53,747 nt of DNA from Candidatus Epulonipiscium sp. (lineage in GTDB: Bacteria; Bacillota; Clostridia; Lachnospirales; Defluviitaleaceae), in contig JAAYML010000111.1 of NCBI GenBank assembly GCA_012521395.1, forward strand, positions 1 to 53,747, in the 5' to 3' direction. Every line of letters starts with the position of its first letter. The stretch's first letter is position 1. Shown one piece after another: positions 19,938 to 24,364 of the stretch. The position numbers were made by a program, and so were the translations under genes. The notes beneath the pieces were generated by a model. It was not told the DNA's origin. It did no database searches and saw only the letters and a program-made list of their open reading frames with translations.

Positions 19938-19966
19938 TTGAAAAAGATTTTTATCCGTGTTATAAT
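19938..19966 (+). promoter_or_regulatory. Sigma-A promoter for the tRNA-Lys/tRNA-Leu operon
   Basis: TTGAAA-N17-TATAAT, 21 bp before the tRNA-Lys. Confidence 0.75.
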
Positions 19967-19986
19967 ACCCTTTGCGTAGAAAGCTT

Positions 19987-20059
19987 GCACCATTAGCTCA
20001 GTTGGTAGAGCACCTGACTCTTAATCAGGGTGTCCGGGGTTCGAGCCCCCGATGGTGTA
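19987..20059 (+). tRNA. tRNA-Lys (CTT)
   Basis: Acceptor gcaccat/atggtgt; anticodon loop ctCTTaa. Confidence 0.95.
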
Positions 20060-20063
20060 TTTT

Positions 20064-20149
20064 GCGATTGTGGCGGAATTGGCATACGCGCTAGACTAAG
20101 GATCTAGTGTCCACTTACGGACTTGGGGGTTCGAGTCCCCCCAATCGCA
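20064..20149 (+). tRNA. tRNA-Leu (AAG)
   Basis: Class II tRNA; acceptor gcgattg/caatcgc; anticodon arm ctaga-ctAAGga-tctag; variable arm gtcc/ggac; A73. Confidence 0.94.
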
Positions 20150-20158
20150 TATGAATAA

Positions 20159-20201
20159 TAAAGGGTGTTTGGTCGAGTCCCAAATACCCTTTGTTTTTTT
20201 G
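20159..20201 (+). terminator. Rho-independent terminator of the tRNA operon
   Basis: aaagggtgtttgg...ccaaataccctttgttttttt. Confidence 0.75.
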
Positions 20202-24142: not shown

Positions 24143-24364
24143 ATAGACAAAGACAATGAAGAGGAATAGTAAATACATTTTTTTTCAGAGAGGGAATCGT
24201 TGGTGGGAGATTTCTAAAAAATGTATTTATGACCCGCCTTGGAGTTCTGTATGATGAATACAGCGGTAACGTTGGTTATCGTTAATAAAAATGAGTGATG
24301 CGTATGCATTATTAGGGTGGTACCGCCGAAAACCTCGGTCCCTTTTGGGATGGAGGTTTTTATA
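24143..24364 (+). promoter_or_regulatory. T-box leader upstream of proS; predicted specifier CCC (Pro)
   Basis: gaagaggaatagta stem I, agggtggtaccgcc T-box motif at 24314-24327, terminator aaacctcggtcccttttgggatggaggttttt. Confidence 0.92.

Follow-up and report, generated by a model that had tools for sequence, protein, structure and literature searches.

A34 leucine tRNA as the probable CUU/CUC reader in a Candidatus Epulonipiscium genome and across its clostridial order

Known A34 leucine tRNAs and the host locus

In most bacteria, the leucine codons CUU and CUC are read by tRNA-Leu(GAG). Exceptions are known already, as tRNA-Leu(AAG) with inosine at position 34 (I34) occurs in Oenococcus oeni, Streptococcus pyogenes, and Streptococcus mutans, and AAG stands in for GAG in Lactobacillales. 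I34 in tRNA-Leu(AAG) was first found in O. oeni (PMC8072771), complete editing of this tRNA by TadA was demonstrated in vivo and in vitro for S. pyogenes, an activity that E. coli TadA lacks (PMC11472039), and an I34 signature was detected by tRNA-seq in S. mutans and also in oral streptococci (PMC13249217). The last study placed nearly all bacterial tRNA-Leu(AAG) genes in the class Bacilli, asked whether the trait extends further, and reported UUA-to-CUU/CUC recoding together with tRNA-Leu(AAG) in Lactobacillales.

A gene of this kind was identified in a contig of Candidatus Epulonipiscium sp. (Defluviitaleaceae), within the 53,747-nucleotide stretch analysed here as a whole (the window). The class II tRNA-Leu(AAG), with A73 and no encoded CCA, lies at 20064..20149 on the + strand, as supported by ARAGORN, Rfam RF00005, and the sequence itself: ARAGORN typed 20063-20150 as tRNA-Leu(aag), and the RF00005 match over 20064-20149 scored 55.8 bits (gathering score 29; E 2e-9). 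The 86-nt gene comprises a 7-bp acceptor stem (GCGATTG/CAATCGC), an anticodon stem (CTAGA/TCTAG), and a long variable arm (GTCC..GGAC). Its anticodon loop CTAAGGA provides C32, U33, A34, A35, G36, and G37, with U33 and G37 flanking the anticodon at 20098-20100 (+; A34 = 20098). The agreement of all three lines of evidence bears out the original prediction of a well-formed tRNA-Leu(AAG) with a class II arm, A73, U33, and G37.

Compared with the Lactobacillales tRNA-Leu(IAG) of Streptococcaceae and Lactobacillaceae (PMC13249217, PMC11472039), the host shares the replacement of GAG by A34, the two never occurring together, as well as TadA, tRNA-Arg(ACG), a low-GC Firmicutes background, and high UUA use. 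The differences are that the host belongs to the class Clostridia (Defluviitaleaceae, along with its whole order) and that I34 was shown there and is deduced here. Similarly, O. oeni represents a Firmicute with an A34 tRNA-Leu in which I34 was shown, and it also carries A34 tRNA-Thr and tRNA-Ser (cited in PMC8072771, PMC8266599), whereas the host had none among its 54 typed tRNAs. The general bacterial TadA/tRNA-Arg(ACG) system is also present in the host, and the two anticodon loops share U33, A34, and G36; unlike tRNA-Arg(ACG), tRNA-Leu(AAG) has A35 instead of C35, and E. coli TadA refuses such a tRNA (PMC11472039).

The gene is the second of a two-tRNA unit, following tRNA-Lys(CTT) at 19986..20060 (+; ARAGORN, Rfam 68.4 bits) after a gap of 4 nt. 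The pair is flanked by one promoter-like site upstream and one terminator-like hairpin downstream: a predicted sigma-A-type promoter, TTGAAA-17-TATAAT with a TG extension, at 19938..19966 (+; 11/12 in the consensus scan), and a predicted intrinsic-terminator-like hairpin of 16 pairs with a loop of 7, followed by a T run, at 20157..20195 (+). In 8/8 family genomes aligned, both the Lys(CTT)-Leu(AAG) pair and the -10 element TATAAT were retained, which is consistent with the proposal that a common promoter probably serves both genes. Elsewhere in the window, an ordinary T-box leader (24147-24346; Rfam RF00230, 107.9 bits) lies directly upstream of a prolyl-tRNA synthetase-like ORF, and the window opens (positions 1-770) with 113 bases that match the 23S rRNA 3' end, directly followed by a six-tRNA cluster, with no 5S rRNA match reported between the two.

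Leucine tRNA set and decoding at position 34

The host genome is a draft (2.22 Mb, 130 contigs, 85% complete) with 54 tRNAs detected by Rfam. ARAGORN typed its leucine tRNAs as UAA (two copies), CAG, UAG, CAA, and AAG and also found tRNA-Arg(ACG), and tRNA-Leu(GAG) was not found among the 54 tRNAs. In a relative of the same family (G004), assembled as a single 3.01-Mb contig that is 99% complete with 74 tRNAs, typing covered each of the 14 class II genes; its leucine tRNAs were UAA (two copies), CAG, UAG, CAA (two copies), and AAG, again with no tRNA-Leu(GAG) among the 14. The search for a GAG gene called for by the original prediction thus returned none in either genome, and by standard pairing rules neither genome has a tRNA cognate for CUU/CUC apart from tRNA-Leu(AAG). 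These codons are in regular use: across 46 window genes, leucine was encoded by UUA (45.5%), CUU (22.9%), UUG (12.7%), CUG (11.0%), CUA (4.5%), and CUC (3.5%), making CUU the second-commonest leucine codon, with CUC also in use. As a separate observation, tRNA-Arg(TCG) accompanies tRNA-Arg(ACG) both in the host (G000:C18:6120-6193) and in G004 (locus L298), although I34 in tRNA-Arg(ACG) is expected to read CGA already.

The incomplete state of the host draft, with its 130 contigs at 85% completeness, might be taken to mean that tRNA-Leu(AAG) is redundant or silent, or that AAG reflects a sequencing or assembly error. This is exceedingly improbable, as the 86-nt gene is identical, and likewise adjoins tRNA-Lys(CTT), in the isolate Defluviitalea phaphyphila Alg1 (L104; equated with family member G002 on the basis of identical match coordinates), and the pair, the tRNA, and the promoter -10 are conserved in 8/8 family members. 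A sequencing slip is therefore refuted by independent genomes, and family-wide conservation rules out an assembly error or a pseudogene. The match to Alg1 also places the window in an anaerobe related to Defluviitalea. Redundancy, raised in the original prediction as a possible objection, is contradicted by the lack of any other CUU/CUC-cognate tRNA in the host or in the single-contig G004.

With regard to the enzyme, the TadA gene lies elsewhere in the host genome than the window (G000:C18, locus L046), and its product scored 172.7 bits against NF008113 (curated cut-off 150), confirming a standard, intact TadA gene in the host. This TadA would already turn A34 of tRNA-Arg(ACG) into inosine, the same enzyme would also deaminate A34 of tRNA-Leu(AAG), and I34 would let a single tRNA-Leu read CUU, CUC, and CUA. 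In the best reading, which we consider correct with a probability of roughly 0.87, tRNA-Leu(AAG) is an ordinary, essential-type CUU/CUC reader that has replaced tRNA-Leu(GAG) and acts as the sole dedicated reader of these codons, with I34 made by TadA. We infer I34 because editing is published in S. pyogenes and Lactobacillales, because CUC codons need a reader, and because TadA is intact.

The original prediction had posed inosine made by an extended-specificity TadA and an unmodified A34 as alternatives, and the evidence favours the former over the latter; its description of position 34 as an unmodified A went too far, as DNA gives only the encoded base and a modified state is likelier. Were A34 unmodified, tRNA-Leu(AAG) would be confined to CUU, or would read CUC weakly besides CUU, with wobble by tRNA-Leu(UAG) taking the few CUC codons. 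The low CUC share in the host (3.5% of leucine codons) would fit this, as would the A34 tRNAs without detected I34 in O. oeni described in PMC8072771. Nevertheless, this alternative is improbable: the published A34 tRNA-Leu of Firmicutes are edited (PMC11472039, PMC13249217), the host encodes TadA, and CUC is abundant in some genomes in which AAG is present and GAG was not found, reaching 23% of leucine codons in the GC-rich G011 of the same order and 27% in the class member G244 (20-kb samples). The 23% in G011 counts for I34, since an A34 limited to U-ending codons would not serve CUC.

TadA residues and leucine codon use

According to a structure-based review, C35 is held loosely in Staphylococcus aureus TadA, and the pocket for this base is thought to be narrowed in E. 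coli TadA by the side chains of R26 and R152 (PMC10586758). By alignment, the host TadA has D and M at the positions of E. coli R26 and R152, respectively, and retains the G36-reading R153, which is in line with I34. Loss of R26 and R152 alone is no proof of extended specificity, because S. aureus-type TadA also does without both arginines. In an alignment of TadA from 29 AAG and 28 GAG genomes (the G173 row, taken from a wrong frame, left out), L at E. coli position 55, D at 72, and N at 108 were enriched in the window's clade, an enrichment not independent of phylogeny. L at position 55 was present in 18/29 AAG rows versus 1/28 GAG rows, a contrast that is striking without the tree but comes down to a single supported independent case on it.

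Position 108 was also considered as a specificity switch. It carries N in 9/10 and S in 1/10 of the TadAs of the window's order (host L046, relatives L200-L209), N in the S. pyogenes TadA 2NX8, and D in E. coli and S. aureus. D108 of E. coli is the position altered in the base-editor change D108N and contacts the ribose of U33. The remaining AAG lineages have D or E here and some GAG lineages have N, so position 108 was not retained as a switch. Mapped onto the TadA tree, the AAG/GAG label requires 8 changes (bootstrap range 6-9), of which well-supported branches force one, and no TadA residue followed the label in independent contrasts among the 29 AAG and 28 GAG genomes.

Leucine codon use was compared between 21 AAG and 20 GAG Clostridia genomes, mostly as 20-kb samples, with synonymous GC as a covariate. 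The Lactobacillales-type recoding, in which CUU/CUC rise and UUA falls, was not reproduced. The AAG genomes showed no fall in UUA (effect 0.015 ± 0.032, t = 0.5; 21 vs 20, phylogeny not corrected) and no rise in CUC (21 AAG vs 20 GAG, phylogeny not corrected), while the CUU share of CUU+CUC was higher in AAG genomes (0.083 ± 0.030, t = 2.8; phylogeny not corrected). The Clostridia sample thus departs from Lactobacillales in lacking UUA recoding, a negative that is weak given the small samples and the uncorrected phylogeny.

Taxonomic range and origin

In an order scan of 116 genomes with a leucine-specific D-arm/anticodon pattern allowing one mismatch, AAG was found in 60/66 genomes of the window's order (probably Lachnospirales) and GAG in 0/66, both among the matches listed, and a separate search of 57 relatives agreed. 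A class scan of 245 genomes yielded matches in 96, with AAG in 25, GAG in 71, and both in 0. Because both scans are pattern-based, GAG genes of divergent sequence may have escaped them. In a further scan of named genomes, the 33-base D-arm/anticodon-arm string AATTGGYATACGCGCTAGACTAAGGATCTAGTG matched at least 118 stretches; among the matches listed, ARAGORN typed 79/80 loci as Leu(AAG), the remaining 1/80 being cut by a contig end. Most matches listed were from Clostridia, and the arm is present in Niameybacter (equated with G349 on match coordinates), Anaerocolumna, Vallitalea, and Lachnospiraceae, the named matches from which the order is read as Lachnospirales.

Matches to AATTGGYATACGCGCTAGACTAAGGATCTAGTG also occurred in metagenome-assembled genomes (MAGs) labelled Acidimicrobiia, Candidatus Microthrix, Actinomycetota, Myxococcales, and Zixibacteria. 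The actinobacterial MAGs (L085, L094, L102, L127, L132, L138, L144, L160) share an acceptor stem of their own, encode CCA, and have 51-60% GC, and GAG was not found in them at up to one mismatch. MAG labels are fallible, as two MAGs named Bifidobacterium breve have the Acidimicrobiia-type acceptor stem and an Anaerolineaceae MAG looks clostridial. The arm string also lies in the tRNA-Leu(AAG) of L125 (Myxococcales MAG, 70% GC) and L103 (Zixibacteria MAG), which would add two further phyla, although these labels may likewise be wrong. Judging from these sequence matches, AAG appears to be the standard state across the window's clostridial order and to be present in actinobacterial MAGs as well. 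The suggestion that A34 tRNA-Leu is a lineage trait of Firmicutes thus held in the family and the order, with a range wider than supposed.

Regarding origin, the AAG and UAG genes of the host have an identical anticodon arm bar base 34, CTAGACT[A/T]AGGATCTAG, whereas in several other families of Clostridia the AAG genes correspond to GAG genes with base 34 changed, GCACGTTT[A/G]AGGGGCGTG. At the level of gene sequence, this suggests more than one route to, and more than one origin of, clostridial AAG. The A34 tRNA-Leu of the window's order could accordingly stem from a transferred gene or from a tRNA-Leu(UAG) copy whose anticodon changed, instead of from an in-place G34-to-A34 change. The matching AAG and UAG arms of the host are in line with this, as is the recurrence of the order's arm string in actinobacterial MAGs; the resemblance of other clostridial AAG genes to one-base-changed GAG genes was also listed in its favour. 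Conversely, tRNAs are short and common leucine identity elements make arms converge, and the TadA tree needs about 8 AAG/GAG changes, of which well-supported branches force one. Such an origin is therefore possible but rather doubtful.

A broader account, to which we give slightly less than even odds, holds that the substitution of A34 (presumably inosine) for GAG is not confined to Bacilli. On this view it would be fixed throughout one large clostridial order, would have several origins within Clostridia along two routes (an in-place change of GAG and a change in a copied UAG gene), and would extend to Actinobacteria, among them Acidimicrobiia, with each TadA adapted to A35. What may be new is the taxonomic range, of which no description was found in the literature, though the earliest survey of bacterial A34 may list part of it. 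The range of AAG exceeds the statement that almost all such genes are in Bacilli (PMC13249217), and the many AAG/GAG contrasts provide material to study how a TadA comes to accept another tRNA and whether leucine codon use shifts with inosine.
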